Source of the DNA: a virus
Virus record (IMG/VR): IMGVR_UViG_3300048838_000198
Span: 1 to 42,319 of that record
Strand: one strand, 5' to 3'
DNA: 42,319 nt
The position numbers and the translations under genes are program-made. This document shows, in pieces, positions 1-24,508 of the stretch. The notes under the pieces were generated by a model that worked only from the letters and a program-made list of their open reading frames with translations, was not told where the DNA came from and searched no databases. Each line of letters starts with the position of its first letter. Position 1 is the first letter of the stretch.

Positions 1-127
1 ATTGCTTGCCCCTATATATTGACAATCCGGCTTTCCTGGTCTTATCTGTAGCTGTGTAGCTATCAAGTCCTAAGCTAAGCCAGGATATTACATATCTGGG
101 GTTTCCGTTTACATCATTATTGACTCT
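1..127. repeat. Terminal direct repeat, left copy (assembly overlap)
   Basis: These 127 bases are identical to the last 127 bases of the window. The length equals a commonly used largest de Bruijn k-mer, so this is best read as the overlap left when a circular or circularly permuted genome is assembled, not as a biological terminal repeat. A reading frame on the minus strand continues correctly through the join, which supports circular closure. Confidence 0.95.
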
Positions 128-169
128 GTACACCTCAACATTATGTTTTTTATTAAGTATTACAGTCAT
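1..169 (-). CDS. Small hypothetical protein, 5' part (gene crosses the join)
   Basis: The first 56 codons of an 82-codon gene lie here; the rest is at 42113-42192 on the circle. The protein starts MTVILNKKHNVEVYRVNNDV and is soluble, with no recognised domain. A segment around WLSLGLDSYTATDKTRKAG looks like a compact alpha/beta fold, but no family could be assigned. The start is set by an ATG placed directly after the stop of the neighbouring gene, in the sequence GAGAAATAGTATG, the same stop-start arrangement used by its neighbours. It belongs to the early-type minus-strand operon. Confidence 0.75.
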   Translation of the reverse strand, partial: MTVILNKKHNVEVYRVNNDVNGNPRYVISWLSLGLDSYTATDKTRKAGLSIYRGKQ

Positions 170-170
170 A

Positions 171-377
171 CTATTTCTCCATAGGGTAAAATTTAATAAT
201 ATTCTTCTCATATGTACCACAACCATCATTGAGAGGTTGAATACTTGCTAATTCAACAGCTGTATTATGTGTCTCCTCAGATACTAGTCTCATATAATGT
301 TTATATGCTTGCTTGTATGTTTTATAGTTAAAATCCACAACGCCGCATATATTGGTAAAATAGACTCTATAGATCAT
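171..377 (-). CDS. Small hypothetical protein (68 aa)
   Basis: The protein begins MIYRVYFTNICGVVDFNYKT and shows no recognised domain. The ATG at 377 is preferred over an in-frame upstream ATG because it sits in the repeated cassette GAGGGTAAATAGTATG, which supplies a GAGG ribosome-binding site, the stop TAG of the upstream gene and the next ATG. It is one gene of the tightly packed minus-strand block reading toward the join. Function unknown; the arrangement suggests an early accessory or host-takeover protein. Confidence 0.7.
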   Translation of the reverse strand: MIYRVYFTNICGVVDFNYKTYKQAYKHYMRLVSEETHNTAVELASIQPLNDGCGTYEKNIIKFYPMEK

Positions 378-378
378 A

Positions 379-576
379 CTATTTACCCTCATTTTTTAAT
401 TGATATTGATATATAAACTTTAAAACGTCCTGATATTGATTTAAGCTATTAACTATATCTCTATAATAAATAGTATCTTCAAGAGTAAACCCATCAGCGT
501 CTACAATTTTAGCGTGGGTTTGACTAGCAAATTTATATAAAATAGCTTTTTTATTGTTTCCTATGTTTATAGTCAT
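379..576 (-). CDS. Small hypothetical protein (65 aa)
   Basis: The protein (MTINIGNNKKAILYKFASQT...) has no recognised domain and ends in NEGK, whose codons form part of the recurrent stop-start cassette. Its own start follows the sequence GAGGGTAAATAATATG, giving a clear GAGG ribosome-binding site about eight bases upstream. It is co-transcribed with the neighbouring minus-strand genes. Confidence 0.7.
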   Translation of the reverse strand: MTINIGNNKKAILYKFASQTHAKIVDADGFTLEDTIYYRDIVNSLNQYQDVLKFIYQYQLKNEGK

Positions 577-577
577 A

Positions 578-829
578 TTATTTACCCTCTAATAAATTGA
601 TAAAATTGCTGACTTCACAATCCTCTTCTAGATAACGGGCAAGTTTGCCTATAAACCCATAGCCAGTATCAGCCTTGATTGCTTTGTCTATGTTTTTGTC
701 ATCCATTGGGACTACTAAATAGCCATGCCCTGCGGTGGTGATAAATTCATAGCCTGGTTCAATAACCGCTGAATATTGGCATTTATCGTACGGCTTCAAT
801 CTGTTGAACTCTTGCATGTATTTATTCAT
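578..829 (-). CDS. Small hypothetical protein (83 aa)
   Basis: The protein starts MNKYMQEFNRLKPYDKCQYS and ends LLEGK. An upstream in-frame ATG at 865 exists, but it would overlap the preceding gene by 35 bases; the ATG at 829 directly follows GGAGGGTAAATAGT, so it is the better start. No domain recognised. Part of the minus-strand small-gene operon. Confidence 0.7.
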   Translation of the reverse strand: MNKYMQEFNRLKPYDKCQYSAVIEPGYEFITTAGHGYLVVPMDDKNIDKAIKADTGYGFIGKLARYLEEDCEVSNFINLLEGK

Positions 830-830
830 A

Positions 831-953
831 CTATTTACCCTCCAATAACTCATTGATAATCTCATCAGCTATATCAGCTTCAATAGCTTCAATAGCTTGT
901 AACTCTTGAGTATATTCTTCTGGCTCAAGCATCCAGTAAGTGAAATCTTGCAT
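831..953 (-). CDS. Acidic 40-aa protein, first gene of the minus-strand operon
   Basis: This short frame (MQDFTYWMLEPEEYTQELQA..., ending LLEGK) is very acidic and probably helical. It is supported by a strong Shine-Dalgarno (GGGGGAACT before ATG), by its position as first gene behind a good promoter at 983-1012, and by its exact stop-start coupling with the next gene. Its small size and acidity would suit a small inhibitor or DNA-mimic type protein, but that is only inference. Confidence 0.65.
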   Translation of the reverse strand: MQDFTYWMLEPEEYTQELQAIEAIEADIADEIINELLEGK

Positions 954-982
954 AGTTCCCCCGAACTAATTAATATACGTGT

Positions 983-1012
983 ATAATATCATATATATAT
1001 TATGTATGTCAA
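983..1012 (-). promoter_or_regulatory. Sigma70-type promoter for the minus-strand operon
   Basis: Read on the minus strand, a perfect -35 box TTGACA (1012-1007) is followed after 18 bases by TATTAT (988-983) in a very AT-rich spacer. Transcription would start near 976 and give a roughly 23-base leader carrying GGGGGA ahead of the ATG at 953. Confidence 0.75.
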
Positions 1013-1032
1013 GCATAACATTACCTCAAGTG

Positions 1033-1061
1033 TTGAGAATGTGCAAGGGTTGCGATATAAT
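1033..1061 (+). promoter_or_regulatory. Promoter of terS, predicted leaderless
   Basis: TTGAGA (1033-1038), a 17-base spacer and a perfect TATAAT (1056-1061) are followed by only six bases before the ATG at 1068. The expected +1 is the A of the ATG. There is no usable Shine-Dalgarno spacing (AGGA lies two bases from the ATG). This points to a leaderless transcript. Confidence 0.75.
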
Positions 1062-1067
1062 AGGACC

Positions 1068-1517
1068 ATGGACAAGCCAACTTCTAAAGCTAAAATATAC
1101 AACAAGGCCAAAACCCGCTCTAATAGTGTTAAATCTCTTCAAATACCGCAATCCGATTTACTACCGCACCTAAAAGCAATTACAAACCCTAAAAAAAGGC
1201 ACTTTTTAGAGATTTACTATATATGTGATGGCAACATAACCAAAGCATGTAAGGCTAGTAAGATCAGCCGACCTACTTTCTATCACTGGCGGGCCAATGA
1301 CAAGCTCTTCAAAGAATACCTTAATGAGAAGCAAGAACAGTTAAATGATGAGATGAAGCAAACACTAATTGATCGGGCAAGAGATCAAACCGGTAAAACT
1401 GAGCTTATATTCTACCTGAAGAACAGACACCCTGAATTCCAAGCTCATAAGGAAACATTTGCCGTAGAAGGTAAACAGGGAGAGAATACAGTAAGATTCG
1501 TATTAAGCCGGGGTTAA
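1068..1517 (+). CDS. terS: Terminase small subunit
   Basis: TerS binds phage DNA at the packaging start and loads the large subunit. The 149-residue protein has a basic N-terminus followed by a helix-turn-helix (about residues 40-70, with NITKACKASKISRPTFYHW), as in the phBC6A51-type homeodomain small terminases, then a helical region ending in a segment (TGKTELIFYLKNRHPEF) typical of that family. The ATG at 1068 is chosen because the promoter -10 lies six bases upstream; the in-frame ATG at 1002 lies before the -35 box. It is divergent from the minus-strand operon and is followed by about 410 bases of non-coding DNA before the next promoter. Family assignment is firm; the exact DNA target is unknown. 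Confidence 0.88.
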   Translation: MDKPTSKAKIYNKAKTRSNSVKSLQIPQSDLLPHLKAITNPKKRHFLEIYYICDGNITKACKASKISRPTFYHWRANDKLFKEYLNEKQEQLNDEMKQTLIDRARDQTGKTELIFYLKNRHPEFQAHKETFAVEGKQGENTVRFVLSRG

Positions 1518-1928
1518 AACCCGCTAAACTTCAGTAACAAGATAAAACCCTCATATCATTATAAGAAAAGATCTATCAATAACATAGTGCAATACATTGC
1601 AGATTGTGCAAGCCCTGCCTACTTAATGGAATCAAGAAACAATAAGTAACTAAGTAATAAGGATGGGAAACAAAGAAGTGTAAGGATTGTAAACCCTAGG
1701 AGCATGGGCAATCTCATATCTTAAACACTTAATACATAAACAAACACCTCAAGACCGCAGACCATGCACCAGAGGAGCTACAAGCACCCTAGAACGTGTA
1801 CACAAGCAACCAAGCACTAGAGGTAGAGGGGTACCGGGTAGCCCCCCTATATAGGTTCGGATCCCCCTGGTGCTATATATAATAGGAAGGGGATGCCTCC
1901 AAGTATATGCAATAGGCCACATAAGTTA
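1518..1928 (+). other. Non-coding region with a GC-rich structured element (candidate packaging site or RNA)
   Basis: No convincing gene is present in these 411 bases between terS and the next promoter. The right part holds a dense GC-rich element in AT-rich surroundings. An outer stem pairs 1813-1823 with 1864-1874 (AGCACTAG with CTGGTGCT, one G-T pair, then GG/CC after a mismatch). Inside it are a hairpin at 1826-1846 (GGGGTAC and GTAGCCCC) and the perfect palindrome CCTATATAGG (1846-1855). Its position beside terS makes a cos/pac site a natural candidate; a structured RNA is the alternative. It resembles a tRNA superficially (seven-pair acceptor-like stem, GGTTCGGATCC) but is only 62 bases and lacks a proper T stem and anticodon arm. 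Confidence 0.5.
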
Positions 1929-1957
1929 TTGACATTATGGTTAAGTTTATTTATGCT
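1929..1957 (+). promoter_or_regulatory. Promoter of the ribbon-helix-helix gene, predicted leaderless
   Basis: A perfect TTGACA (1929-1934), 17-base spacer and TATGCT (1952-1957) are followed by six bases and then the ATG at 1964. The geometry matches the promoter of terS exactly, again with no Shine-Dalgarno. Confidence 0.75.
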
Positions 1958-1963
1958 ATGTGT

Positions 1964-2356
1964 ATGGATAACACACACAAGATGGTAAGACTAAGCACAA
2001 CCATACCAGAATATGTTAAAGAAAGGCTGGAAGAAATACGGAAATTAAGGGGATATCCCTCAACTAGCAGGGCTATAGAGTCTCTAGTAATGGAAGATAG
2101 TATAAGTAGGCGTATAGATGCCTTAATTAGTGTCATTGAGGGTAAACAAACGCATGGAGAACACATACAAGATAAGAAGCCACAAGTATTAGTGGGATTA
2201 TGTGCTAAGTATTGCAGTAAAGAGAAACAGAATGTGGTGGCTACCCGCTACACTGACAAAGATGATAATATTATGGAAGAGTTACTTTGTAAGAAACACT
2301 TAATGGAGCTTATACAGTATCAGAAAAACAATGGTGGAAAACTAGAATATGTCTAA
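1964..2356 (+). CDS. Ribbon-helix-helix DNA-binding protein with C-terminal zinc-binding segment
   Basis: Residues 6-45 (KMVRLSTTIPEYVKERLEEI, then helix-turn-helix-like STSRAIESLV) have the form of a MetJ/Arc-type ribbon-helix-helix domain, known as a dimeric DNA binder. The C-terminal half contains cysteines in CAKYC and CKKH patterns that could bind zinc. The longer frame from 1937 would begin inside the promoter spacer, so ATG 1964 is used (130 aa). It overlaps the terL start by eight bases, so it is coupled to packaging genes. A role as regulator of late genes or as a packaging-site binding protein is inference. Confidence 0.65.
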   Translation: MDNTHKMVRLSTTIPEYVKERLEEIRKLRGYPSTSRAIESLVMEDSISRRIDALISVIEGKQTHGEHIQDKKPQVLVGLCAKYCSKEKQNVVATRYTDKDDNIMEELLCKKHLMELIQYQKNNGGKLEYV

Positions 2357-3677
2357 AGTTGCCCTAAACGTATTCGCCCCCAGCAAGCCCCATGCTAAAC
2401 AAGTGGAGGTGCTTAAAGCTTTAGATGAAGGTCAGAGATGGGTGCTAATTAGAGCAGGTAGGAAGTTTAGAAAAACCAGTTTGATGGTGAGCTGGCTTAC
2501 CGAGATGGCACTTAAGACGAAGCTGACCTGTCCATATATTGCCCCCAGTAGAATACAGGCAAAGAACATTACCTGGAATGACCATATTGCTAGACTTCTC
2601 TATCATTTTAAAGAAATAGGCTTTCCGTATAAGAAGAATGAGTTGGAGTTAAGCGTGACTTTTCCACAGTTTTCCGATAATGGGAGAATTAGCTGGGATG
2701 GGGGTAGAATCCAACTGTTCGGAGTAGAGAATGAAGAAGGTTTAAGAGGAATTTCTAACTGGGGAGCTGTAGGGATGGATGAGTATGATGACTGGGGAGA
2801 AGATATTTGGCCTTTGATTATCAGACCTAATCTAAGTACCAACCTAGCCCCCGCCATGGTATCTGGGACTCCCAAAGGGTATAGGAATTTGTACAAAATG
2901 GAGCAGGGTGGATTGTTTAAGGCATTTCACTTTACCTCTCACGATAATCCCGATCTTGATAGGGAAGAGTTAGAAACGATGGAGGCTGAATACAAGAGCA
3001 TGGGGATGGACTATTATAGACAGGAGATTCTGGCAGAGTATGTCAGGCCTTATGGTGTTGTGTATGAAGAGTGGCCCGATGATAATTATAAAACCTTTGA
3101 CTACGATCCCTTCCTACCCCTACATGTGGCGATGGACTTTGGAGTTAATGACCCCACTGCTATTATTTGGATACAGCCCGCTAATGGAGAATTTAGGGTG
3201 GTGGATTATTATGAACAGTCTGAGGCCAACATTTCCCACTTTGTTCAGGTAATACGCAGTAAGCCATATAAGAAGCCTGATCTGTTTTGTGGAGATGCTG
3301 CCGGGAAAGCCAGAAGTATCACCACCAACACCTCACCCATAGAGGAATACTCTAAACATGGAATACATATTAGAACTAAGGATGGATTACAGATACCCGA
3401 TCAGATTAGAATAACCCACAAGTACATTACTAGCTTATTTTTAAATGATAAAAAGACAGAACGTTTAAAAGAATGCCTGCTCAATTACAAATATCCTCAG
3501 AAAAAAAGTACCCTGACTAATCAATCTAATGAGATACCCCTGCACGACGAGTGGAGTCATGGGTGTCGTGCTTTGGAATACTACTTTGCTAATATAGGGG
3601 GTGGTGGGATATTAAAGGATCACAGAGTTTCAGCCCTACAAAATACTCAAATGAAAACGAAATGGCAAATCGGGTAG
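2349..3677 (+). CDS. terL: Terminase large subunit (ATPase-nuclease)
   Basis: TerL drives DNA into the procapsid and cuts the concatemer. The 442-residue protein has a Walker A region at residues 36-43 (AGRKFRKT), Walker B acidic pair at 144-145 (VGMDEYD), the coupling motif SGTPKG at 172-177, and a C-terminal RNase H-like nuclease with acidic residues D263 (AMDFGVND), D316 (FCGDAAG) and D400 (HDEWSHG). Length fits the family. The Walker A has Arg where a Gly normally precedes the Lys-Thr, an oddity discussed in the findings. The start overlaps the preceding gene by eight bases. Confidence 0.93.
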   Translation: MSKVALNVFAPSKPHAKQVEVLKALDEGQRWVLIRAGRKFRKTSLMVSWLTEMALKTKLTCPYIAPSRIQAKNITWNDHIARLLYHFKEIGFPYKKNELELSVTFPQFSDNGRISWDGGRIQLFGVENEEGLRGISNWGAVGMDEYDDWGEDIWPLIIRPNLSTNLAPAMVSGTPKGYRNLYKMEQGGLFKAFHFTSHDNPDLDREELETMEAEYKSMGMDYYRQEILAEYVRPYGVVYEEWPDDNYKTFDYDPFLPLHVAMDFGVNDPTAIIWIQPANGEFRVVDYYEQSEANISHFVQVIRSKPYKKPDLFCGDAAGKARSITTNTSPIEEYSKHGIHIRTKDGLQIPDQIRITHKYITSLFLNDKKTERLKECLLNYKYPQKKSTLTNQSNEIPLHDEWSHGCRALEYYFANIGGGGILKDHRVSALQNTQMKTKWQIG

Positions 3678-3940
3678 AAATAAATAAAAGAATGTATGGT
3701 TGGTCTAAGTATGGTGGTGGAATGTATGGAATGGTTAAAGGGGAGAGCGATTGGTTTTGCCAGTCGTGTGGGTCTAAACAAGCCAAGGAGATGGCTCAGT
3801 ATATGATCCCTATAGATATTTTTAAAAGGGATTACATTAGAGTGTGTGGTATTTGCAAACATGTACAACTTAGACATAAACTAAATTATCGTCAATTATG
3901 TTTTAGATTTAGAGTAAGGGAGATTCATGAAAAAAAGTAA
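3662..3940 (+). CDS. Small zinc-ribbon protein between terL and portal
   Basis: The 92-residue basic protein carries two CxxC pairs (CQSC near residue 33 and CGIC near residue 62), spaced as in a zinc ribbon. It overlaps the terL end by 16 bases and the portal start by 14, so the three are translated together. No good Shine-Dalgarno precedes it, consistent with coupling to terL. Function unknown; nucleic-acid binding is plausible from the fold and charge. Confidence 0.65.
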   Translation: MANRVEINKRMYGWSKYGGGMYGMVKGESDWFCQSCGSKQAKEMAQYMIPIDIFKRDYIRVCGICKHVQLRHKLNYRQLCFRFRVREIHEKK

Positions 3941-5912
3941 AGCATTTAAGCAAGATGAAAGCATAATTACCGAATTGCAGGAGCATTACCAGGCTTGGAC
4001 AGACGATAATAAAAAAAGACAAACTAGAGTTAATGGCTGGAATGATATTACCGATGCCTACTATGGGAAACTTCCGGATAATTGGCCTTTCATGAGCCGG
4101 ACTGTTGACCCTAGATTAAGAACTTCTATTGTTGAGAAGAATGCCCGCCTATTAAATAAGACATTAAGGGGTAAATTAGGCCCAAGAGAGGGCGGAGATG
4201 TGGCTGGATCAATTATTAACAACGCAGTAATTGACTATCAGTGGGATAGAGCCAAGTTTGGTGGCACAATGCAGGAGAAATTAAGCGAATGTGATATAGA
4301 TTCACGCCTTTACCAGTCTAAATTTGTCTATGTGTACTGGAAAACAGATAAAAACAAGAAAAAACAGATCCTTTTTGATGGAAACGAGATGATGCCCCTG
4401 GATATTCGTGATTGTGGATTGGATTACAACGCCAAAAGTATAGATGATGCCAATTGGTTCCAGTGGAGAAGGTGGATTACCTACGAAGATTTAGAAAAGA
4501 TGAACCTTAAGAACTTCTCTGAGCTTAAAAAGAGAATAAAAGATCCTAAATTCATTAACCAAGACAGAAGAGATACTGAATGGCAGTCTAGATTGAAGAA
4601 TATTAAGGGTTTAGAAGATAGAATGGGTCGTGATAAAGCCTTCCCGGTCTTAGAGTTGGTAATTGAGTTTAGAAAAGACGAATTCTACTACTTCTTGCCG
4701 GATATGAACCTTATCTTGGATGATATGGATAACCCCTACGAACACAATATGATTCCTATTAGACAATTAAGATACTTCCCTGTTCAGGATGATAATTTAG
4801 GTGAGTCAGAGGTTGAGCCAGTCCTTCCCCTGTGGAGAGCTATTCAGGCCACCCTTTGTTCATTCATGGATGAGGTTATTATAAAGATGAGACCACCGCT
4901 TAAGGTGGTTGAGGGTCAAGCTAGAGCTGAAACAATAGTATGGAGTCCAGAAGCTCAGTGGTTGGTTGACAATCCGAATGCAATTACTGAAATGGCGGGA
5001 TCAGGAGAAGCGGTAAGATACTTCACTAATTCATATCCAGCCCTTATTTCAGCTTTCAATATCGCCATGGGTGATCTTTCTCAAAATACTTCTAATATAG
5101 ATCCACTGGCTGCCGATAAGACTGCTACTGAGGTTAAAGCAATTCAAAGGCAACAAAATGCTAGGGATGAGAAGAACCAACAAACTCTAGCAGAGTTTAT
5201 TAAGGGTATTGTGATGATGTGGCTTTCCAACAATCGCCAATATCTATTCAGAGATCCTGCAAAGAGCGAACACATCTTAAAGATACTAGGTGAAGAGAAA
5301 TATAGAGAATTCCAACAGCTTGGTATGGATGAGATGATTATGACCGATGAGGCTACTCAACAGATTGCTGACATTGTTACTCAGATGACTGAATCAGGGA
5401 TTGATGTTACTGATGACCAGATAGCCAACATGACCGATGCGGTTAAGATACCCAAGTATCCAGTATTGGAAAACCCCAATGAGAAGCACATTGATAAGGT
5501 TGTTATTAAGCCCAAGATGAAACTTGATGAAACAGGACAACTGGCAGAGTTATCAGTAGTACCACAGGATCTAACTGGAGAGTATGATTACATACCAGAC
5601 GTTAAATCAATGGAGGCCGGAGCTGGTGAGGCTATGTCCTTTGCTAGAAACCAACTAATCAATCAGGTACAATCTCCTACAATGATTAACGCCCTTCAAA
5701 CTCAAGGGTGGATGCCTAAGTTTAAAGAATTATTAGTTGCCTCATTTGAGGAGGAAGGACTTAAAGATGCCCAACGATTCTTTGAAAAAGTACAACCTGG
5801 AGCAGATGGAGCTGCAGAAGGCTCTGGCTTACCTGGCAGGCCTACCGGAGTACAGCCATTACCTAAAGCCCCTACTCAAGAAAAGATTACACAACAAATG
5901 GCTCAATCCTAG
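3927..5912 (+). CDS. Portal protein
   Basis: Portal proteins form the dodecameric ring at the head vertex through which DNA passes and on which TerL and the neck assemble. This 661-residue protein lies directly behind terL and before the scaffold and capsid genes, has the size of P22/podovirus-type portals, and contains the expected mixture: an N-terminal helical part, a beta-rich wing (around residues 120-270), a long helix region with many Gln (about 395-440: KTATEVKAIQRQQNARDEKN) and a Gln/Pro-rich tail. Start ATG 3927 has a good AAGGGAG ribosome-binding site. Identification rests on order, length and this architecture rather than on a catalytic motif. Confidence 0.85.
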   Translation: MKKSKAFKQDESIITELQEHYQAWTDDNKKRQTRVNGWNDITDAYYGKLPDNWPFMSRTVDPRLRTSIVEKNARLLNKTLRGKLGPREGGDVAGSIINNAVIDYQWDRAKFGGTMQEKLSECDIDSRLYQSKFVYVYWKTDKNKKKQILFDGNEMMPLDIRDCGLDYNAKSIDDANWFQWRRWITYEDLEKMNLKNFSELKKRIKDPKFINQDRRDTEWQSRLKNIKGLEDRMGRDKAFPVLELVIEFRKDEFYYFLPDMNLILDDMDNPYEHNMIPIRQLRYFPVQDDNLGESEVEPVLPLWRAIQATLCSFMDEVIIKMRPPLKVVEGQARAETIVWSPEAQWLVDNPNAITEMAGSGEAVRYFTNSYPALISAFNIAMGDLSQNTSNIDPLAADKTATEVKAIQRQQNARDEKNQQTLAEFIKGIVMMWLSNNRQYLFRDPAKSEHILKILGEEKYREFQQLGMDEMIMTDEATQQIADIVTQMTESGIDVTDDQIANMTDAVKIPKYPVLENPNEKHIDKVVIKPKMKLDETGQLAELSVVPQDLTGEYDYIPDVKSMEAGAGEAMSFARNQLINQVQSPTMINALQTQGWMPKFKELLVASFEEEGLKDAQRFFEKVQPGADGAAEGSGLPGRPTGVQPLPKAPTQEKITQQMAQS

Positions 5913-6066
5913 CGACTACAAAACTCAAGAAGAGTTTTTACTAGCCTACAATGAAGAGCTTGGTTATGCTAGGGCGGTGAAAGATATTCTTAAGATGATT
6001 GATGATGCCTCTACTAGGGTAGAAGGTATTGCTAAATCAATGGAGCCAATCAAAAATGTCATATAA
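5767..6066 (+). CDS. Small helical protein overlapping the portal 3' end (99 aa)
   Basis: The ATG at 5767 is selected because it has the ribosome-binding site GAGGAAGGA (5751-5759) at ideal spacing; it therefore overlaps the portal gene by 146 bases in another frame. A shorter start at 5806 is possible. The downstream part beyond the portal (FLLAYNEELGYARAVKDILKMIDD) is a helical, charged protein. Similar small genes occur after portals in many podoviruses, but no function is assigned. Confidence 0.65.
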   Translation: MPNDSLKKYNLEQMELQKALAYLAGLPEYSHYLKPLLKKRLHNKWLNPSDYKTQEEFLLAYNEELGYARAVKDILKMIDDASTRVEGIAKSMEPIKNVI

Positions 6067-6259
6067 GCTTGAACCACTAGACTTTACCGAAGAGATTGAA
6101 GAGTTTGATGCTTTTAATGAGTCTAAGAAAATAGAGTTTAAGAAATGCTCTCACCGATGGGCTAAAATTGAGAACGGAGTTTTACGCTGTGATTGTGGTT
6201 CTTCTTGGGAGGGTGCTGGAATTCAACAGCTAGAAAAAATACTTCACGAACAGTCATAA
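6056..6259 (+). CDS. Small zinc-binding protein (67 aa)
   Basis: The protein begins MSYKLEPLDFTEEIEEFDAF (acidic) and has a C-terminal CSHRW...CDCG cluster that could bind one metal ion. GGAG lies ten bases before the ATG, and the start overlaps the previous gene end by 11 bases. No function recognised. It is the last gene before the promoter at 6262. Confidence 0.6.
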   Translation: MSYKLEPLDFTEEIEEFDAFNESKKIEFKKCSHRWAKIENGVLRCDCGSSWEGAGIQQLEKILHEQS

Positions 6260-6261
6260 AC

Positions 6262-6289
6262 TTGACAACCTCAAAACGATTTATATAGA
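6262..6289 (+). promoter_or_regulatory. Promoter of the scaffold-capsid unit, with 5' stem-loop
   Basis: A perfect TTGACA (6262-6267), 16-base spacer and TATAGA (6284-6289) predict a start near 6296. The leader then carries a six-pair hairpin, TAAGTC (6302-6307) with GACTTA (6317-6322), almost at the RNA 5' end; such hairpins are known to protect mRNA from 5'-end-dependent decay. This would give the scaffold and capsid extra, stable transcripts. Confidence 0.65.
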
Positions 6290-6359
6290 GTGCTATTAAC
6301 CTAAGTCTGATGCTCCGACTTAAAACACGAGCAAATATATTTGAAGGTTGAGGAGTTGT

Positions 6360-7133
6360 ATGCCTGATACAACAAATGGTCAAGATATTGTGGAGGAGAA
6401 ACCACAGGAAGAAGTGACCGCTTCAGAACAAACCCAAGTTGATGAACTTCCAGAAGATGTGAGTGAGAGAACCCGAGAGCAATTTGAAAAACTCAAGGAA
6501 TCAAACAAGCAAATGAAGGAAAGGCTTAATGCCCTAGAAGCAGGGCAACAAGACCAACTTGCAGACATCTATGACAGCCTTAGACCCAAAGGGATGCCTC
6601 AGTTAGATGAGAATTCCGGTAATCTAGATACGCTAATCAAAGATGGCTATGTTGATGAGAATGTTCTTAAACAATCTCTTAATCAACTAACTAAGCAGGC
6701 TCAGGAAGCTCAGAAAAGAGCTGATCTGGCACAGAAGAAAATTCAGGAGATAGAGGAGAATGCTCAAGTCAAAGAAGCTTACAAAGAGTATCCCCAGCTA
6801 AATCCAAAGAATACTGATGTGTTTGATCCTAATTTCTATAAATTGGTCAAGAACGAACTTATTGGTCAAATGATAGAGGGTAAAAAAGACCTTCTAGAAG
6901 CTGCACAAGAAGTTAGTAGAGTTTACAAACCAAACGTAGAAGCTAAGGAGAAGGAGCAGGCAAAGAAAGAAGATTTTGATAAGAAGGAAGAACAGATTCA
7001 AAAACAAAACCCGACCTCAGGTGCAAGGGGGCAAGATCGCTACGCTGAATTAGATCAGAACGATCTAGTAAAAGCCACCATGCGAAACCAGAAGGGTGCT
7101 TTAGCCGAAAGGTTGAGGCGATCTGGATATTAA
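6360..7133 (+). CDS. Capsid scaffolding protein
   Basis: Scaffolds template procapsid assembly and are removed before DNA entry. The 257-residue protein is highly charged and rich in Glu, Lys and Gln, with a long predicted coiled coil (about residues 40-65 and 105-140) and a basic C-terminus (MRNQKGALAERLRRSG) of the sort that docks on the capsid protein. It lies immediately before the capsid gene. The ATG at 6360 has GAGGAG just upstream; the ATG at 6348 lacks one. Confidence 0.8.
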   Translation: MPDTTNGQDIVEEKPQEEVTASEQTQVDELPEDVSERTREQFEKLKESNKQMKERLNALEAGQQDQLADIYDSLRPKGMPQLDENSGNLDTLIKDGYVDENVLKQSLNQLTKQAQEAQKRADLAQKKIQEIEENAQVKEAYKEYPQLNPKNTDVFDPNFYKLVKNELIGQMIEGKKDLLEAAQEVSRVYKPNVEAKEKEQAKKEDFDKKEEQIQKQNPTSGARGQDRYAELDQNDLVKATMRNQKGALAERLRRSGY

Positions 7134-7149
7134 AAATTAGGAGGTCAAT

Positions 7150-8079
7150 ATGGCTTTTGGAAAAGATACCTACAGTGGTTCTTCAGAAATGAGAGAATCA
7201 TTACTTTCTATCTTAAAAGACGTATCGCCAAACGAGGACAACTACTTTGTATCCAATTTAGGATCAGGGCCAGTTGCTACCCAAAGTTTACATGAGTGGA
7301 ACTTGTATTATGATGCAAGACCTACTGCTGTAAGTCCTTCCGTTGAAGGTGCTGCGACTGTTTATGCCGATCTGACCGCTGAAACACGCTCAAACAACTA
7401 CACTGCTATCGTAGAAGAAGCAGTGAGAGTTTCCCGAACCAAAGCATCTATTGCTATGGTAACTGGCGAAGATGCCATGGGTAAAGAAAAAGAACGTGCC
7501 ATGAAGCGACTCAAGGCTAAGATGGAATGGCTAACAATTAACGGATCAGCAGTTGCTGGTTCAAGTGGTGTTGGTCGCAACGCAGCTGGTATTGATGGAA
7601 TGATTTCCACCAATGTCACCGCCAGAGCTTCTGGAACATCCTTTACTGAAATTGAATTGAATGACATTGTTCAAGATTCTTGGAATGCAGTCGGTTCAGA
7701 GTATGTGATGGATATGTTAGTTGCACCAGTAATTATCAAACGCAGAGTAGCCGGTTTCGGAACTAACCTTACTCGCAACATTAACGCTTCTGAGAAACGT
7801 TTAACTAGCGAAGTCAGAGTTTACGATTCTGAAGTTGGTCAAACTGTCATGGTAATTGCTCACAAAGATGTTCGCAAAGCAGCTGGTACATTAACCGTAC
7901 TTGGTGTTCGTGAAGAACTCTTTGAACACTCATTCTTAGTAGACTCTGGTGAGCCTCACTGGGAAGATAGGGCAAAAGATGGAGATAGAGAAAATGGTGT
8001 TTATATCACCGAATTCACTACTGTATCTTATGACCAACGTGCAAGTGCTAAGAGAACTGGATACGCCACAACTCTTTAA
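7150..8079 (+). CDS. Major capsid protein (SU10/DUF5309-like)
   Basis: This 309-residue protein has the best ribosome-binding site of the region (AGGAGG at seven-base spacing), fitting very high expression. Its N-terminal region (SNLGSGPVATQSLHEWNLYYDAR), central AVRVSRTKASIAMVTGED with the following long helix, and C-terminal beta-rich part resemble the SU10/DUF5309 family of HK97-fold capsid proteins. It is preceded by the scaffold and followed by a strong terminator, as expected for the most heavily transcribed gene. Confidence 0.87.
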   Translation: MAFGKDTYSGSSEMRESLLSILKDVSPNEDNYFVSNLGSGPVATQSLHEWNLYYDARPTAVSPSVEGAATVYADLTAETRSNNYTAIVEEAVRVSRTKASIAMVTGEDAMGKEKERAMKRLKAKMEWLTINGSAVAGSSGVGRNAAGIDGMISTNVTARASGTSFTEIELNDIVQDSWNAVGSEYVMDMLVAPVIIKRRVAGFGTNLTRNINASEKRLTSEVRVYDSEVGQTVMVIAHKDVRKAAGTLTVLGVREELFEHSFLVDSGEPHWEDRAKDGDRENGVYITEFTTVSYDQRASAKRTGYATTL

Positions 8080-8108
8080 AATGATATAGTTTGTTATATT
8101 CATAGATT

Positions 8109-8135
8109 AGCCCCCCTTTACTTGGGGGCTTTTCT
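8109..8135 (+). terminator. Rho-independent terminator after the capsid gene
   Basis: AGCCCCC (8109-8115) pairs with GGGGGCT (8124-8130) around an eight-base loop and is followed by TTTCTTT. It closes the scaffold-capsid transcript and insulates the glycosyltransferase cassette. Confidence 0.88.
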
Positions 8136-8145
8136 TTGGTATTCT
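8117..8145 (+). promoter_or_regulatory. Promoter of the glycosyltransferase cassette, nested in the terminator
   Basis: TTTACT (8117-8122) in the terminator loop, a 17-base spacer and TATTCT (8140-8145) are followed by six bases and the ATG at 8152. The box-to-ATG spacing is identical to the two other leaderless promoters; the -35 is weaker (four of six consensus bases). Confidence 0.5.
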
Positions 8146-8151
8146 TAATTT

Positions 8152-8553
8152 ATGAGATCCATTAAGTTGGATGGGGAAACATACGACATTCCAACACAAC
8201 AAGCACAAGTAATATCAAAGACCATAGCTGAAATGTGGGAGAGATTGGGTAGGCCAGAAACACCTCTATCGGAATCTGGTGAGAAACTAATGAAGATCAT
8301 TATTGCGACTTGGGAAGATACTTTTCCTATTGAATCAAATGATTGGTATGAAGCAAGAAAAGAGTACAAGTTAAATGAGTTTGATATTAAAACTCAGGTG
8401 CATAGGCAAACAGGTAGAAGCCTGGCATCTTACCCATCTTACATTTACAACGTAATGAAGAGGGTATTTCCCCAGTTTAAACTTTCAGACAGAGAAAACG
8501 TGATGAAGTTAGTTAAAAAGTATCCCATCTTCCAAATGGCAAATAAAGTATGA
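8152..8553 (+). CDS. Hypothetical protein opening the glycosyltransferase cassette (133 aa)
   Basis: The protein begins MRSIKLDGETYDIPTQQAQV and is mainly helical. It ends KLVKKYPIFQMANKV and has no recognised domain. No Shine-Dalgarno precedes the ATG, and the -10 box lies six bases upstream, so leaderless translation is predicted. Its stop overlaps the start of the next glycosyltransferase gene by four bases (ATGA), tying it to that cassette. It could be a capsid-associated protein or an accessory of the glycosylation system; nothing decides between these. Confidence 0.7.
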   Translation: MRSIKLDGETYDIPTQQAQVISKTIAEMWERLGRPETPLSESGEKLMKIIIATWEDTFPIESNDWYEARKEYKLNEFDIKTQVHRQTGRSLASYPSYIYNVMKRVFPQFKLSDRENVMKLVKKYPIFQMANKV

Positions 8554-10325
8554 AGATAGCCCTTTGTGCAATCGTTAAAGATGATAGTGAGCTTAATTCT
8601 TTGATGAAGATGACTGGATCAGCTATTGCCCATGTAGATGGGGTATTCATCACTGCAAATGGAAAAGAAACCGATGAGATAGAACTTGCTTGTAAACAAT
8701 ATAAGTGGAATTATTCATATCTCCCATGGCATAAAGACTTCTCAGAACAACGCAACTTTAACTTTTCGCAAGTACCTGCGGATTATGACTATATCTTGTG
8801 GATGGATGCAGATGATGTTCTAGTTGGTGGGGAGAAGTTGAGAGAAGTGGCAAAAAAGTCACTGGAGAATAAGATAGATGTAGTATTTTTCACTTACTGG
8901 TATGGATGTTTATTTGATGGAGAACCATCCGAAGAAAACCTTGTTGATGTTGAGATTGAACAGAATAGGGAGAGGTTAATCAAGCCCGGGTCAATTACCT
9001 GGAAGAAACGCCTACACGAAACACCTATTAAGAATGATGGCTACAACTTTAGAGGGAGTATGCATAAATACTCAGAAGAACAACCAATGGCTGTATTGCA
9101 CCTTGGAGCAGCCAGAAATGTAAGTGAAGATCAGATAAAAGAGAAAATGAAGAGAAATCGTGAGATACTAGAGTTAGAGCTGGCGGATGAGGTGAGGGAG
9201 GGCGAACCCGATCCCAGAACCCAGCTCTATTTAATGAAGATTTACGCAGAGATGGATGAACCCGAGCTTTGGGAAAAGACTATTGAGATGGGAATTCATT
9301 ATCTAGAGAAGTCTGGTTGGGATGAGGAAAGGGCAACCGCCTATATTCTTATGGCTAAGTGCTGGGGAATGTTGGGAGATAACCAGAAACCAATCCACCT
9401 ACTTCATAAGGCGATTGAAGAAGATCCATATAAGCCTAACCAGTATCTTAAATTGGCAGAAGCTTATTACAACGTAGGTCTTTATGACAAAATGTACCAC
9501 TGGCTTGAATATGCCATGCAAATGCCAGAGCCAAAAGTAAACTCTATTGTGGATAACGTATTAGAGAGAAAAATGTTAGCAGCTGAACTACTACTTAAAT
9601 ACTACTTTAACGCTAACAAAAATACCCAGAAAGCATATTTAGCAGCAAAAGAGCTTTACAAACTTAATCCAACTGAAAACAACCACAATAATGTGGAGTA
9701 TTTGCGGGGAATTGCTAATTTGGACACTGCTTGCCGACATACCGATAAACTTTGGGAGTATCTAGAGTCCATTGGTGAAGAAAAAGCCGTTTTAGACACA
9801 TTTCAATCGCTCCCCCAGGCTATAACATCTCAACCTTTTGCCATAAATAAGTACCAAAAGTATGCAAAACCCCGAATTTGGGGCGTGGATGAGATATGCT
9901 ACTTCGCAAACTTTGGAAAAGCTCACTTTGAAAAGTGGGATGCTTCTAATTTAGATACTGGAATTGGTGGAAGTGAAACAGCGGTAATTAGTTTAGCGGA
10001 AGAATGGGTGAAGCGTGGTTGGAAAGTAACTGTTTATGGAGATCCAGTATCTTCCAAAGAAATAAACGGAGTGATTTATCTACCATGGTATCGCTTTAAC
10101 AGAAAAGATAAGTTTAATATATTCATCCAGTGGAGAAGTGGATACTTGGCTGAACACATAAGTAGTAAGAAATTCTATGTAGACCTGCATGACCTCTATC
10201 ACCCCAATGACTTCAAAGACAACATAGAAAAGATAGATAAGATATTCGTTAAGTCTAAGTTTCACCGCAATATAGCCAAGGATATTCCAGATGATAAATT
10301 TATTATAGCGAGTAATGGCTTATGA
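8550..10325 (+). CDS. Glycosyltransferase: GT2 domain, TPR repeats and N-terminal half of a GT4 domain
   Basis: Residues 1-230 form a family-2 glycosyltransferase (GT-A) with FSEQRNF at 64-70 and the metal/nucleotide-sugar motif WMDADD at 84-89. The middle (about 210-430) is a helical tetratricopeptide-like array (for example PIHLLHKAIEEDPYKPNQYL). From about 445 the protein becomes a GT-B fold N-terminal Rossmann domain: GIGGSETAVISLAEEWVKRG near 471, then VDLHDLYHP and IFVKSKFHRN, ending IIASNGL. In intact GT4 enzymes this ending is followed by the second Rossmann domain, which here is encoded at the start of the next gene. The two genes overlap by ATGA. The enzyme should be cytoplasmic; its acceptor (virion protein, DNA or cell-wall glycan) is unknown. 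Confidence 0.85.
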   Translation: MKIALCAIVKDDSELNSLMKMTGSAIAHVDGVFITANGKETDEIELACKQYKWNYSYLPWHKDFSEQRNFNFSQVPADYDYILWMDADDVLVGGEKLREVAKKSLENKIDVVFFTYWYGCLFDGEPSEENLVDVEIEQNRERLIKPGSITWKKRLHETPIKNDGYNFRGSMHKYSEEQPMAVLHLGAARNVSEDQIKEKMKRNREILELELADEVREGEPDPRTQLYLMKIYAEMDEPELWEKTIEMGIHYLEKSGWDEERATAYILMAKCWGMLGDNQKPIHLLHKAIEEDPYKPNQYLKLAEAYYNVGLYDKMYHWLEYAMQMPEPKVNSIVDNVLERKMLAAELLLKYYFNANKNTQKAYLAAKELYKLNPTENNHNNVEYLRGIANLDTACRHTDKLWEYLESIGEEKAVLDTFQSLPQAITSQPFAINKYQKYAKPRIWGVDEICYFANFGKAHFEKWDASNLDTGIGGSETAVISLAEEWVKRGWKVTVYGDPVSSKEINGVIYLPWYRFNRKDKFNIFIQWRSGYLAEHISSKKFYVDLHDLYHPNDFKDNIEKIDKIFVKSKFHRNIAKDIPDDKFIIASNGL

Positions 10326-11710: not shown

Positions 11711-12116
11711 TTTTGAGATATTTCATAGAGGACATCTAATCTTACTAAAAAAGTGTAGGGAGTTAGCTGATTATCATAAAGTTGTGGTTGGACTAAACAC
11801 TGACCAATTCATTGAAAAGTACAAGGGCAATAGTCCAGTCATAGGATATGAAGAGAGAAAGGCAATTATATTAGAAACTGGTCTGGTAGATGGGGTAATC
11901 CCCAACGATCAATCGGGAGGGAATGCTAGGGATGTTATAAAAGAATCACGTGCAGACCTGATAGTAATTGGAAGTGATTGGGCTAGAAAAGATTATGTTG
12001 GACAACTAGGGATAGATTGGAAATGGCTTGATATAAACAACATTGGAATTGTGTACCTTAATTACACCCACTCTATTTCTACAACAATAATTAAACAGAG
12101 GTTAAATGGACATTAG
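11688..12116 (+). CDS. tagD: TagD-like glycerol-3-phosphate cytidylyltransferase
   Basis: The 142-residue protein has the full signature of the small nucleotidyltransferase family: HRGH at residues 13-16 (HxGH), the arginine in YEERKAI (about 57), and ISTTIIK at 130-136. Length and sequence fit TagD, which makes CDP-glycerol from CTP and glycerol-3-phosphate for teichoic acids; related enzymes activate other sugar or alditol phosphates. Start 11688 has a good GAGAGGAAAAGT ribosome-binding site and overlaps the previous gene by 23 bases. Its place among glycosyltransferases suggests that it supplies an activated building block to the cassette. The precise substrate is not provable here. Confidence 0.85.
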   Translation: MNIITLGSFEIFHRGHLILLKKCRELADYHKVVVGLNTDQFIEKYKGNSPVIGYEERKAIILETGLVDGVIPNDQSGGNARDVIKESRADLIVIGSDWARKDYVGQLGIDWKWLDINNIGIVYLNYTHSISTTIIKQRLNGH

Positions 12117-12651: not shown

Positions 12652-13286
12652 AAATAATCTATAGAGTTTCACCATTTGAGCAAGATAATCCCTCACCAAT
12701 TTACTCTAATGAAAAAGAGAAGCTGGTTAAGCTATGCTATGAATCATTTAAGAAGGCTAACTCTGGCTTTCCTGTTTTATTCTTATTAGATAGATGTGAC
12801 TATGACTTCTTTGAGGGTGATGTGGTTCACTTCACTGGTGTTGATAAGAATACTTCGCTCAGAAGAGCCTATGAGCTGGCCAGGGAGTTAGATGATAAGG
12901 TTTTATTTGTTGAAGATGACTACCTATGGAGACCAAACACTATTAAGTTTCTAGAACCAGCTATAGATGAATTTACTCTAGTTTCTCCCTATGACCATCC
13001 AAGCCATTATCTTGAAGATAAGTTTCCCGATGAACACACATTGAAGATATTTCAGAATAACGTATGGAGAAAAGCCTTGTCTAATACTCATACCTTTGGA
13101 GTCCACTCAAATTACTTAAGCGAACACTGGGATATTTTTTATAACTTTGGAGTAAATGACCATGCTATGTTTCAGGCATTACCCAATGATATCTGGCAAC
13201 CTACATATAGCTTTGCAACTCACATGGTCTATGCCTATATGGCTCCGAATATCAATTGGAAAAGTATTTGGACTAAACTGTTGTAA
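12648..13286 (+). CDS. GT-A-like glycosyltransferase (212 aa)
   Basis: The start at 12648 forms an ATGA overlap with the preceding stop and is preferred to the in-frame ATG at 12618. KVLFVEDDYLW (near residue 85-95) is a DxD-type motif preceded by a helix of the right kind, and the C-terminal half (SPYDHPSHYLEDKFPDEH, then AMFQALPNDIWQ) fits a small transferase with an unusual acceptor region. Family assignment is weaker than for its neighbours. It is the last gene of the cassette. Confidence 0.6.
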   Translation: MKIIYRVSPFEQDNPSPIYSNEKEKLVKLCYESFKKANSGFPVLFLLDRCDYDFFEGDVVHFTGVDKNTSLRRAYELARELDDKVLFVEDDYLWRPNTIKFLEPAIDEFTLVSPYDHPSHYLEDKFPDEHTLKIFQNNVWRKALSNTHTFGVHSNYLSEHWDIFYNFGVNDHAMFQALPNDIWQPTYSFATHMVYAYMAPNINWKSIWTKLL

Positions 13287-13310
13287 ACGTGTAATCAATC
13301 CTACTATAGT
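13281..13310 (+). promoter_or_regulatory. Candidate promoter for the tail genes
   Basis: TTGTAA (13281-13286), an 18-base spacer and TATAGT (13305-13310) lie between the glycosyltransferase cassette and the tail adaptor gene. The start would fall just before AATAGGAGGAATT and the ATG at 13329. Confidence 0.45.
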
Positions 13311-13328
13311 TTACTAATAGGAGGAATT

Positions 13329-13967
13329 ATGCGAACATTAAACGATATTTTAATTGCTGTAAATGCGTATGTTGATCTTGAAGCCTCAGCTCCTACCGGA
13401 GATGAATTAGTATTTAGGGCTAATTTAGCCAATCAAGCGGTATGGGATGCTTCAGGAGTTTCACAATTTAGCGAATTTGATGAGGTTTATGAAGTTGATC
13501 CTGCCACCAACGCAACAATCCCGCTTCCATCAAACTTTAGAGAATTCAAAACCAATCCCCGCCAGAATGTAAATGGTACTTGGGTAGAATACCCAGAGAT
13601 ACTTCCAGAGCAAAGATATAATCATGGACCTTCAGAGAAGTATTGTTATGTGTTGGGTAATCCAGCACAAGGGTTTAGTGCCATCTTTAATGGGCTTGAA
13701 GCCAATATGACGCTATCCTTCACCAATCAGAGGTTTCCATCAGGACTACTTACTTTATCAGACGTGTGTGAGTTATCTGATCCTACTTATGTAGTTAGTC
13801 AAACCGAATCATATATTCTTCAATCTAGAGGAGATGACCGATTCCCTTATGTGGACTCTATTGCTAGTACCAAGCTTAAAAACCTGGTTGGAAGAGATAT
13901 GAAAACTCCCGGTGGTGGCTATAGAAAGACACCATCAAGCTTCAATAATCCATTAAATAGAGGTTAA
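13329..13967 (+). CDS. Head-to-tail adaptor (tail tubular protein A-like)
   Basis: The 212-residue protein follows a strong AGGAGG site. Its N-terminus (MRTLNDILIAVNAYVDLEAS, then FRANLANQAVWDASG) is a helical segment like that of T7 gp11/P22 gp4-type adaptors, which bind beneath the portal, followed by a beta-rich part. It is adjacent to the nozzle-like gene, the usual podovirus order. Assignment is by order, length and general pattern. Confidence 0.65.
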   Translation: MRTLNDILIAVNAYVDLEASAPTGDELVFRANLANQAVWDASGVSQFSEFDEVYEVDPATNATIPLPSNFREFKTNPRQNVNGTWVEYPEILPEQRYNHGPSEKYCYVLGNPAQGFSAIFNGLEANMTLSFTNQRFPSGLLTLSDVCELSDPTYVVSQTESYILQSRGDDRFPYVDSIASTKLKNLVGRDMKTPGGGYRKTPSSFNNPLNRG

Positions 13968-13969
13968 AT

Positions 13970-15904: not shown

Positions 15905-15937
15905 TAACGTATTTAAATTAGTAGTAAAAAGGAATAT

Positions 15938-18107: not shown

Positions 18108-18134
18108 GTAATATATATATAAGGAGAAAATAAT

Positions 18135-19328: not shown

Positions 19329-19330
19329 TT

Positions 19331-19364
19331 GCAAACATCTCTCTATAATTACTAGGATGTTTGT
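19331..19364 (+). promoter_or_regulatory. Inverted repeat sequestering the start region of the 1412-aa gene
   Basis: CAAACATC (19332-19339) pairs with GATGTTTG (19356-19363), with an extra G-T pair outside and a 16-base loop that contains TATAAT. The right arm overlaps the AGGA ribosome-binding site and ends one base before the ATG. It is not followed by a T-run, so it is not a terminator. Confidence 0.5.
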
Positions 19365-22300
19365 ATGAGCATATTTGATGACATAAGATCCATAGGACAA
19401 GTAGCAATAAAAGATCCTAAACGATTTGGTACTGCTTTAGGCAATACTATAAAGATACCCCTAGAGAATAAAAGACTGGCTCAAGAGCAAAAAACAGCTC
19501 AACTACTTGCTGATACTGGTAGATTAAGGCAGTCAAGAGGGGCTGATGGATCAAATTACTTTAATTCTGCACAGAGAATAACTCAGAATGCTGCTAATCA
19601 ACAAATGACCCTGGCTGACTTAGCAAAGCAAACTCGCAGGGATGCTGTTGGTGGTGGAGTTGGAACAGCTCTAACGATCTTAGGGGCGGGGAATATGCCT
19701 ACCTCAACCGCAATTAGGGGAGTTAATAACTTTAGGAATGTCGGATTAGGATTAAACACGCTTGGAAGAATGGGATCTGTTGGGGCTATTGGAACAGGTA
19801 TAAACACTGGTATTAGCATGGCTATGAATCCTAAGGCAAATGTAAAAGACGTAGTAAGACAATCAGCAATTCAATCTTTTGGAAATGCTCCTAAATATGC
19901 AGGAGTTAATTCCCTCACCAATCCCCTTATCTCAAAATACATGAATGGAGTTAATCCAACTTCATTAAAAGCCAGAATGCTCGCTGGTGGCGGCAGTAAT
20001 GCCTTAGCAAACGTAGCAGAAGATGAACTCTTAAAATATACCGATGAGGGAAGGTTTATGAACCCCTCGGAAACCTTGGGGAGTGCTGGCACTGGATTTG
20101 TGTTTGGTGCTGCTACTCAGGTGAAGCCAACCTTACAGGCAAAGAAGGCGGCTGATGAGTCAATGAACAACATTTTATCCACTCTTAGAAAATCTACTCC
20201 TGGTGAAATCCAAAAAGCTAATGAAATGGCAAAGATACATTATGAAACCCATAAGACTGCACTTTTCCCAAACACTAAGAAGTATTCAGCTGATAATGCT
20301 AATGCCATCGGAAGAATCATTGGTGAATATGAAACAAATGGAAGAATAAGTAAAGACACCAGAAGAGAGCTAGAAGAGATAATATCAGGACATATTAAGA
20401 AAGCTAATCTAACCAAGATGAGTGATGATTTTCTTGTAAGAGAAGCATTTTATCAAGTTAATAGTCAAATTAAGCAGGGCGGGTTTATTAAACCCGATGA
20501 ATTCTTTGGCTCTAAAACGAATCAACCTCAGCTAAAAACAGAAGAGCCAAAAATAAAAGCCGAAGAACAACCAAACATAATTAAAACTAGAAACCAAGCA
20601 ATTAAGGAAAGACTTGTTGAACTTGGGGCAGATCCAAAGAAGTTAAAGGTATTAGACCAAAATATAAAGGAAAACAAGGCTATTCTTGAAAAGACCATAT
20701 ATGGATCGGAAACTCCAGAAAAAACCGCTTTTGGTGGTACTAAAGAGGGTGCAGGACTTGTTACTGATAAGCTGAGAGCTGTTCAAGAAGATATCAGCAC
20801 AAGTGTTGGAAAACTTAATGAAAGCCCTAGTCCGGTGGTAAGGAATGTCGGCAGATTACTACAAGGATTTGCTGGCGGACTTGGCAAGACCCAGGAAGAA
20901 GTTGGTGCTAGGAATGCCTATCTTGGTGGATTAGAAGAATCAAAACAGGTTGGCGGAGACTTTGAAAAATATGTTCAAGAAACACTGGGTAAGGATGAAA
21001 AATCACTGAATAGGGTATGGGCTGTCTTAGATCCAGAAAGGGGCAAGGGTAAATACTCAGAATTATCTGATGCCGAAAAGGGAGTAGCAGACTTTGCAAG
21101 AACAGTAAATGACTTTATAAACGATCTTAACTATAAAAATGGTTTCATATCTAAAGAAAACTGGGAAGCTAATAAGGGTGGCAAGTATATTGCTAGAGCC
21201 TATGAAGAGTTTGACTACCCACCAGAGGTAACAGACTTCTTAAGAATATCCAAGGGTAAGTATGACTTGAACGCTTTTTACAAGAGAACTCTGGGTGTAG
21301 ACGTGCCAGAAGATTTAACTCAGATTAAAGATCCAGGGTATTTGATTGGTAAAAGACTCCAACAAACAATGTTTAATGACTCTCTTAAAAAGATGACAAC
21401 CTGGATGAACAGCACAGACATGGTTTCAACCAAGCCTAAAGATGGGTATGTCAAGATTGCTGAACATAAGATGTATGGTGATTTATCTGGTAAGTGGGTT
21501 AGAAAAGATACTTTAGAAGATATTAAGGGCTTCTTTTACACCAGTGACACAGCTCAGAAAATGTACGATATTGTTAGCTTATACGATGGAAACATCATCA
21601 GAAGAAGCTATAAGAAGTTATTCACAGTAATGAATCCCGCAGTGAGAGTAGCAAACAAAACAAGTAATTATGTATTTGCATGGCTAACTGGGATTGACCC
21701 AGTAACCTACAAGAAGAATCTATCTTTTGCTAATGATGAGGTTAAAGGTCAAGGTCAACTATATCGCAGGATGTTGCGGGATGGTCTATTAAGATCAGAT
21801 ATAACCAAAGCTGACATAACTAGGATGGCTACTGAATTGAAGGCGGGGATAGATGATCCTGGTATCCTTAAGAAATTTGATGACATGATGGTTAGTGGCT
21901 ATGGCAAGACTGATGATATGGCTAAGATATCAGCCATGAAAACATTTTTAGATCGTGGCTATTCATACGATGAAGCCGCCAGAAGAGTTACCAATGGCTT
22001 CCAGAACTATCACATGGTTGGTTGGTTATATGATGTTGGAGCAAAGATACCAGTCTTAGGAAACCCATTTGTTAGATTTAAGGGTGATCTTAATAGAATC
22101 CTAAAGAATGGAATGATTGAACATCCAATAAGAACAATGTCTACAGTTATGGCAGTTAAATTACTAACAGACCTAACTAGTAGGGCTAGTGGTGAAACAC
22201 CAGAAGATAAACAGACTAGAGAGGGAAGGTTTGGAAGTCCACATATCCCCTTCACCAATGTGTCTTTAGCGGTTCAAACCCCATGGGGAGAAGTAAACGC

Positions 22301-23974: not shown

Positions 23975-23975
23975 T

Positions 23976-24296: not shown

Positions 24297-24297
24297 C

Positions 24298-24498: not shown

Positions 24499-24508
24499 AG
24501 GAGAATAT

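Follow-up and report, generated by a model that had tools for sequence, protein, structure and literature searches.

Promoter boxes adjoining start codons at the heads of late transcription units in a phage family point to leaderless mRNAs

Three genes in IMG/VR virus record IMGVR_UViG_3300048838_000198, namely terS, a ribbon-helix-helix (RHH) gene at 1964 and the gene at 8152, are preceded by promoter-like sequences that end so close to the ATG that transcription would be expected to start there. Are these members of a leaderless class, or chance AT-rich boxes? The whole stretch of 42,319 nucleotides that was analysed is called the window. Because it carries a 127-base direct terminal repeat, it is probably a complete genome (about 42.2 kb, 40% GC), and genes for packaging, capsid, tail fibre, replication and lysis are all encoded in it. 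Reading of the sequence confirmed the three promoter–ATG units proposed by the sequence-only reading, each in its place, with a spacer of 17 and a gap of 6 nucleotides. Out of 64 hand-listed window starts, exactly these three combine this geometry with at least 4/6 matches in both hexamers; at 49 other gaps (range 0–49) the full geometry occurs 0.12 times on average and once at most. The -10 box alone is not enriched at gap 6 (4 starts versus a mean of 2.8 elsewhere). Promoter-like sites numbered 55 versus 60.6 in shuffles at positions 1–20000 and 40 versus 52.8 at 20001–40000, the final 2.3 kb lying outside the scan. It had also been claimed that the three units lack a Shine-Dalgarno (SD) sequence and that most other genes have one. 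Most window genes do look SD led or coupled, but the absence is not distinctive, since 27 of the 64 starts lack even a 4-base SD core. Given the unenriched -10 box and these 27 starts, the single-genome case is suggestive only.

The same loci were then compared among relatives. Single-sequence scans of viral contigs with TerS and with the gene 8152 protein returned no relatives; the scan with MCP did find them. The MCP search gathered 29 IMG/VR loci (10 in the first scan) and one from a genome collection, making 31 records with the window. Two redundant ones were dropped (L021, inside the L020 record, and L023, 93% in the L024 record), leaving 29 non-redundant records of 638,687 bases for the analysis of gene starts and motifs; the clustering set held 456 ORFs, in clusters of at least 5 ORFs. 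Many of the contigs are fragmentary and related, so that the counts given below are not independent. The window MCP is 23–28% identical to the MCPs of the nine phages found (Pelagibacter, Rhizobium, Sinorhizobium and unassigned), and the order portal, scaffold, MCP, post-MCP gene is that of Sinorhizobium phage phiM5. Gene order and distant MCP homology suggest that the family belongs to the LUZ24-like podovirus relatives. Glycosyltransferase and cytidylyltransferase-like genes occupy 8550–13286, flanked by the post-MCP gene and the tail genes, and are retained in most relatives; in a Manatee Spring podovirus (L072) a glucosyltransferase-annotated gene likewise comes after the post-MCP gene. 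Table 1 lists the window features.

Table 1. Predicted features of the window discussed in the text.
Feature	Position	Strand	Remarks
Divergent leftward early-gene promoter, TTGACA-18-TATTAT	983..1012	-	First gene starts at 953 (minus strand); leader with GGGGGA
Class I promoter of terS, TTGAGA-17-TATAAT-6-ATG	1033..1070	+	Predicted +1 at or adjoining the A of ATG
Small terminase subunit gene (terS)	1068..1517	+	phrog_4044, E 9.1e-12
Promoter-ATG unit of the RHH gene, TTGACA-17-TATGCT-6-ATG	1929..1966	+	-35 at 1929, ATG at 1964; PF01402 E 0.0091, below cut-off
Class II-like promoter TTGACAACCT of the pre-MCP/MCP operon	6262..6290	+	Leadered
Leader pseudoknot upstream of gene 6360, then GAGGAG Shine-Dalgarno	6298..6349	+	
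Intrinsic terminator of the MCP operon	8109..8130	+	Loop holds the weak -35 TTTACT (8117-8122)
Extended -10 TGG-TATTCT (8137-8145), then 6 nt, ATG of gene 8152	8137..8154	+	Full unit TTTACT 8117-17-TATTCT-6-ATG 8152
Post-MCP gene, 133 aa	8152..8553	+	Model pLDDT 91
TTGTAAACG-15-TATAGT, then 18-nt stretch with AGGAGG, ATG 13329	13281..13331	+	Class II spacing kept, gene SD led
Class II leaderless-type promoter TTGCAAACA-15-TAGGAT-6-ATG of the 1412-aa gene 19365	19329..19367	+	One mismatch to TTG[AC]AAACC

The gene at 8152, which follows the MCP gene, gave the clearest result. It could be read in 26 records (the contigs L025, L028 and L031 end ahead of it), and a -10 box matching at least 4/6, with A2 and T6 fixed, lies 5–8 nt before the start in 21 of them, 13 at gap 7 and 6 at gap 6. 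In 2000 trials with Markov-resampled upstream regions the mean was 3.6 records and the maximum 10. With at least 5/6 matches the count was 18 of 26 (resampled mean 1.05, maximum 6). Other 4-wide gaps in the real sequences gave 0–3 records, except for 8 at gap 65–68. The box is directly preceded by TGn at 18 of the 21 sites, and a TTGACA-like hexamer 16–18 nt upstream reaches 4/6 at nine. A 5-base SD core was found at none of the 26 starts and a 4-base core at one (L019). The window's own hexamers are weak, 4/6 each. Five records failed the -10 test: the near relatives L002 (TTGCAA-17-TAATTT-6-ATG) and L013 (TTGAAA-17-TACACC-6-ATG), where the geometry of gene 8152 is exact and the hexamers have drifted; L019 and L020, with a longer gap; and L032, where a hairpin stands immediately 5′ of the ATG and the gene looks leadered. 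The proposal of a consistent leaderless or near-leaderless class was thus borne out by the alignment of the same loci in relatives, in which the spacing is kept while the bases drift.

With a strict detector, a terminator-type hairpin was found 5′ of the post-MCP gene in 19 of the 26 records, L032 included, and the distance from the MCP gene is 72–126 nt in most records and 165, 229 and 716 nt in three. Placement of the -35 inside the terminator loop was considered as a general trait and rejected: it is squarely so in the window and L013 only, it lies at the stem/loop border in L002 and L018–L020 as judged by eye, and it is at neither place in the other records. A later start of the gene was excluded because several of the aligned proteins have few residues ahead of the conserved region. 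Gene 8152 is thus very probably expressed from a leaderless or ultrashort-leader mRNA. Its assignment to glycosylation did not hold, as it encodes a conserved protein of 117–150 aa right after the capsid gene and not a glycosyltransferase. The structural model had no PDB match at E<=0.001, and its best BFVD match was one uncharacterised phage protein (E 0.015).

The class is not confined to this junction. Across the 29 records, there are 53 places where TATAAT lies 5–10 nt before the ATG of an ORF encoding 80 aa or more (8.8 per offset), compared with 56 places at gaps 11–59 (1.14 per offset), and the extended form TGnTATAAT accounts for 19 of 42 sites at gaps 5–10 versus 6 over gaps 11–59. 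When a box of at least 5/6 at gap 5–10 was counted by cluster, this extended -10 type, class I, was found in 17/25 post-MCP, 5/8 TerS, 7/27 pre-MCP, 14/29 portal and 8/20 members of the 13329 family; control gaps in the same clusters gave 0–4, and up to 6 for pre-MCP. The excess is absent from the glycosyltransferase-type clusters (4/25 versus 3–7 in controls). The cluster counts contrast in their SD sequences as well. A 5-base SD precedes 27 of 34 members of the MCP cluster, a few of which are split or joined, and class I only one; the post-MCP family has SD in 0/25 and class I in 17/25, and the portal family has SD in 2/29 and class I or II in 23/29. Because of this contrast, the heads of transcription units tend to be of leaderless type and the capsid gene inside its unit SD led. 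The earlier grouping into packaging entry, regulator and glycosylation cassette has to be replaced, since the class in relatives falls mainly on structural-unit heads (portal, pre-MCP, post-MCP, 13329, 18135 and 19365) and the RHH protein has no relative among the 29 records.

The two other members of the original set fared differently. The terS promoter of the window lacks TGn. In the TerS family a TATAAT-like box stands 5–10 nt ahead of the start in five of eight members, some with gaps of 9–10, and is absent in three. No in-frame ATG, GTG or TTG occurs between 1068 and the conserved domain, and terS probably has a leaderless or ultrashort-leader mRNA. It shares positions 983–1061 with a divergent promoter; both are strong, with 11/12 matches each, the leftward one leadered (GGGGGA) and the rightward one of predicted leaderless type. 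The 440 bases between terS and the RHH gene (1520–1960) contain no convincing gene. The start of the RHH gene is ambiguous, with in-frame ATGs at 1937, 1958, 1964 and 1982, of which only 1964 or 1982 could be on the mRNA if the promoter works as placed. A leaderless mRNA starting at 1964 is doubtful, at somewhat under an even chance.

The number of three leaderless promoters was an undercount, as gene 19365 has a further site that belongs to a second class. Inspection by eye of the portal and tail families revealed the motif TTG[AC]AAACC in a constant position. The 29 records contain it at 102 sites; in 57 cases an ORF encoding 80 aa or more, mostly a portal or tail gene, has its ATG 36–39 nt from the motif start, versus 0.19 per offset elsewhere. 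A start lies at 33–42 for 59 sites and 43 have none there. At most sites of this extended -35 type, class II, the first base of the -10 box is 24 or 25 nt from the motif start. With a slightly wider pattern, class II was found in 22/29 portal, 14/20 13329, 7/16 18135 and 7/10 19365 family members, the window included in the latter, and in 0–2 at control positions. Gene 19365 itself is more likely than not leaderless. An inverted repeat, CAAACATC/GATGTTTG, surrounds its -10 box and reaches the start of the gene (19329–19367).

SD sequences in related genomes, which would have spoken against the class, were found in part, at other genes. Gene 13329 is of predicted leaderless type in most relatives and SD led in the window clade, and the initiation mode appears to differ at the same gene because AGGAGG is present in the window, SD sequences precede the homologue in its relatives G001, G009 and L013 (6/20 across the family) and most relatives have class II. 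When all viral contigs were searched with one strict form of class II, 33 stretches matched. Those from outside the family, which are parts of contigs, contain one or two copies of the motif and at most one before a start, and repeated use of class II therefore looks specific to this family.

The element also occurs in a different setting. In 10 of 10 aligned records TTG(A/C)(A/C)AACC lies about 100 nt ahead of the pre-MCP gene, in the window at 6262, and a leader follows it. In the alignment (window, L014, L015, L016, L018, L019, L020, L032, L002 and L046) this leader can fold into an outer and an inner stem plus a pseudoknot that pairs TGCTC with GAGCA; a purine-rich SD-like stretch comes next in most rows. 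Both partners have changed in eight of 14 pairs, and pairing holds in 84.4% of cells, values that none of 500 shuffles reached, and sliding the pairing partner by 1–3 columns lowered pairing to 29–45%. One of the aligned sequences served as the template for the structure, the rows are related and the outer stem pairs in just 69% of cells. Comparison with Rfam gave no match at the gathering score for the leader in five relatives, and only weak chance matches for window positions 6200–6420. The pseudoknot leader before the scaffold/MCP operon is a candidate new RNA element.

Taken across the family, the motifs, their spacing and their conservation point to late-unit promoters with the -10 box by the start codon, which quite probably yield leaderless or near-leaderless mRNAs. 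Several late transcription units would be headed by promoters of sigma-70 type with the -10 box 5–10 nt, mostly 6–8, upstream of the start codon; RNA polymerase would start the mRNA at the AUG or within about 0–4 nt, and the ribosome would begin on the 5′-terminal AUG without an SD sequence, longer transcripts presumably mattering little. This start point and mode of translation are proposed because of the known spacing of -10 boxes and of studies of bacterial TA-led genes (PMC3160421, PMC12340547). Gaps of 9–10 imply leaders of 2–4 nt, not strictly zero. Class I (TGnTATAAT) would feed the post-MCP gene past the MCP terminator, terS and, in one clade, the pre-MCP gene. Class II (TTG[AC]AAACC, 24–25 nt before a weaker -10) would feed the portal, 13329, 18135 and 19365 families. 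Internal genes and MCP would use SD sequences or coupling, and a promoter right after the MCP terminator would let a new transcript start within the short intergenic gap.

Class II could go further and act as a late switch, in which a phage-encoded factor reads TTG[AC]AAACC instead of a -35 and fires the portal, tail and related genes as leaderless, with the capsid operon using the same element with a pseudoknot leader and SD. We consider this unlikely. Among 30 chosen window proteins, the regulator-like Pfam matches were limited to a 55-aa HTH_17 protein (41033–41200) and the weak RHH match, and no sigma factor exceeded the cut-off. If such a switch exists, late structural output would depend on how initiation in the infected cell is divided between the leaderless (70S) and the SD-led (30S) mode.

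A host that uses leaderless mRNA widely, with the phage simply following and no phage-specific regulatory group, has close to an even chance, and this reading is compatible with late-unit leaderless promoters rather than exclusive of them. Class I boxes resemble plain host sigma-70 sites. Moreover, a phage contig with 32% MCP identity (L068) has the same post-MCP arrangement, with a hairpin-like stretch, TGATATAAT, 8 nt and an ATG after MCP, while the TATAAT box is missing at this junction in the alphaproteobacterial-host relatives HTVC106P and phiM5 and in two Manatee Spring phages, a siphovirus and a podovirus (by motif scan for phiM5, by reading for the others). The contrast fits, without proving, a host-linked habit. 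Against the absence of phage-specific regulation, repeated class II copies were seen only in this phage family, and an SD or coupling seems to serve most window genes.

Ordinary promoters that start slightly upstream, through an alternative +1 or processing, would produce leaders of 5–15 nt and non-SD initiation. The choice of start site by RNA polymerase shifts by a few nucleotides, and the gaps of 9–10 in TerS relatives would suit such leaders; the modal gaps of 6–7, however, place the usual +1 on the A of the ATG or one base ahead, and a leader so short has no room for an SD. We regard this as quite unlikely. Less probable again is that the boxes are chance AT-rich sequences and that longer read-through transcripts carry the genes, with initiation independent of an SD. 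The window would allow it, given its shuffle counts, its starts without an SD core and the weak hexamers of gene 8152, but not the relatives, where the peak is confined to gaps 5–10 and missing at control gaps across 29 records, TGn accompanies most post-MCP boxes and the arrangement after the terminator is conserved. This speaks strongly against chance at the 8152 and portal families, but not at the RHH gene (1964).

That this is an archaeal virus, leaderless through its host, is extremely improbable: the L032 contig, the sole genome match, was binned into a Micrarchaeota MAG with a genuinely archaeal 16S, but the sampled contigs of the MAG are mostly 32–33% GC versus 41% for the phage contig, and the phage proteins include CHAP endolysin- and SLT lysozyme-like domains, which act on peptidoglycan. 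A bacterial host is likely because of these domains, and the phage contigs in the MAG are probably misbinned, given its archaeal 16S and the difference in GC. Two phage contigs were binned there, G027 contigs C50 and C128 (L032, L066–L068), L068 being the second. A bacterial reading of the MAG from a sigma-70 region 4 match was dropped, since archaea matched in the control as well and the MAG has an archaeal 16S. With the phage contig taken as misbinned, the TATAAT-to-ATG profiles of the MAG are uninformative on the phage host. CPR/Patescibacteria were considered as host from the literature alone and are not claimed.

Discussions of leaderless translation usually centre on single phage repressors or on actinobacterial and Deinococcus hosts. 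In this family of uncultured phages, relatives that swap leaderless and SD starts at the same gene would provide a natural series on the interchange of initiation modes. Leaderless promoters could also serve as a clue to the host of a phage, and they call for caution from gene callers on the starts in such phages.

Several known systems resemble parts of this arrangement. T4 middle promoters have a normal -10 and a MotA box, a phage-specific element in the -35 region, and their mRNAs are leadered. Class II likewise has a conserved element at a fixed distance in place of the -35, but no MotA-like activator was found by Pfam among the 30 chosen window proteins. The LUZ24-like phiM5 shares with the window the order portal, small genes, scaffold, MCP, small post-MCP gene, with MCPs 28% identical; it differs in its host and in the missing TATAAT box. 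Bacterial TA-led leaderless genes of Actinobacteria and Deinococcus-Thermus (PMC3160421, PMC12340547) resemble the phage family in placing TANNNT/TATAAT some 12 nt ahead of the start codon, in lacking an SD and in having a promoter that adjoins the ORF. The phage genes differ in being late structural genes at about 34–46% GC, with TGn or a family-specific extended -35 and with SD sequences at other genes of the same genome. In Cluster O mycobacteriophages, leaderless SigA promoters with +1 on the first codon base were predicted (PMC4351075), but these are five closely related phages of actinobacterial hosts known for leaderless mRNA, and the accessible part of that report does not mention the TTG[AC]AAACC element. 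The lambda cI mRNA is leaderless (PMC9031893, PMC3160421); it too carries a phage gene on an mRNA that starts at the AUG, but a single repressor gene and not the heads of late operons. Phage transcripts are described as often leaderless in PMC5312081. Searches of the open-access literature on leaderless mRNA, phages and metagenomes yielded no phage family with conserved leaderless late-unit heads and no TTG[AC]AAACC. Leaderless phage promoters were thus already known from lambda cI and Cluster O, and what appears new is a family with conserved late-unit heads of predicted leaderless type, together with the TTG[AC]AAACC element.
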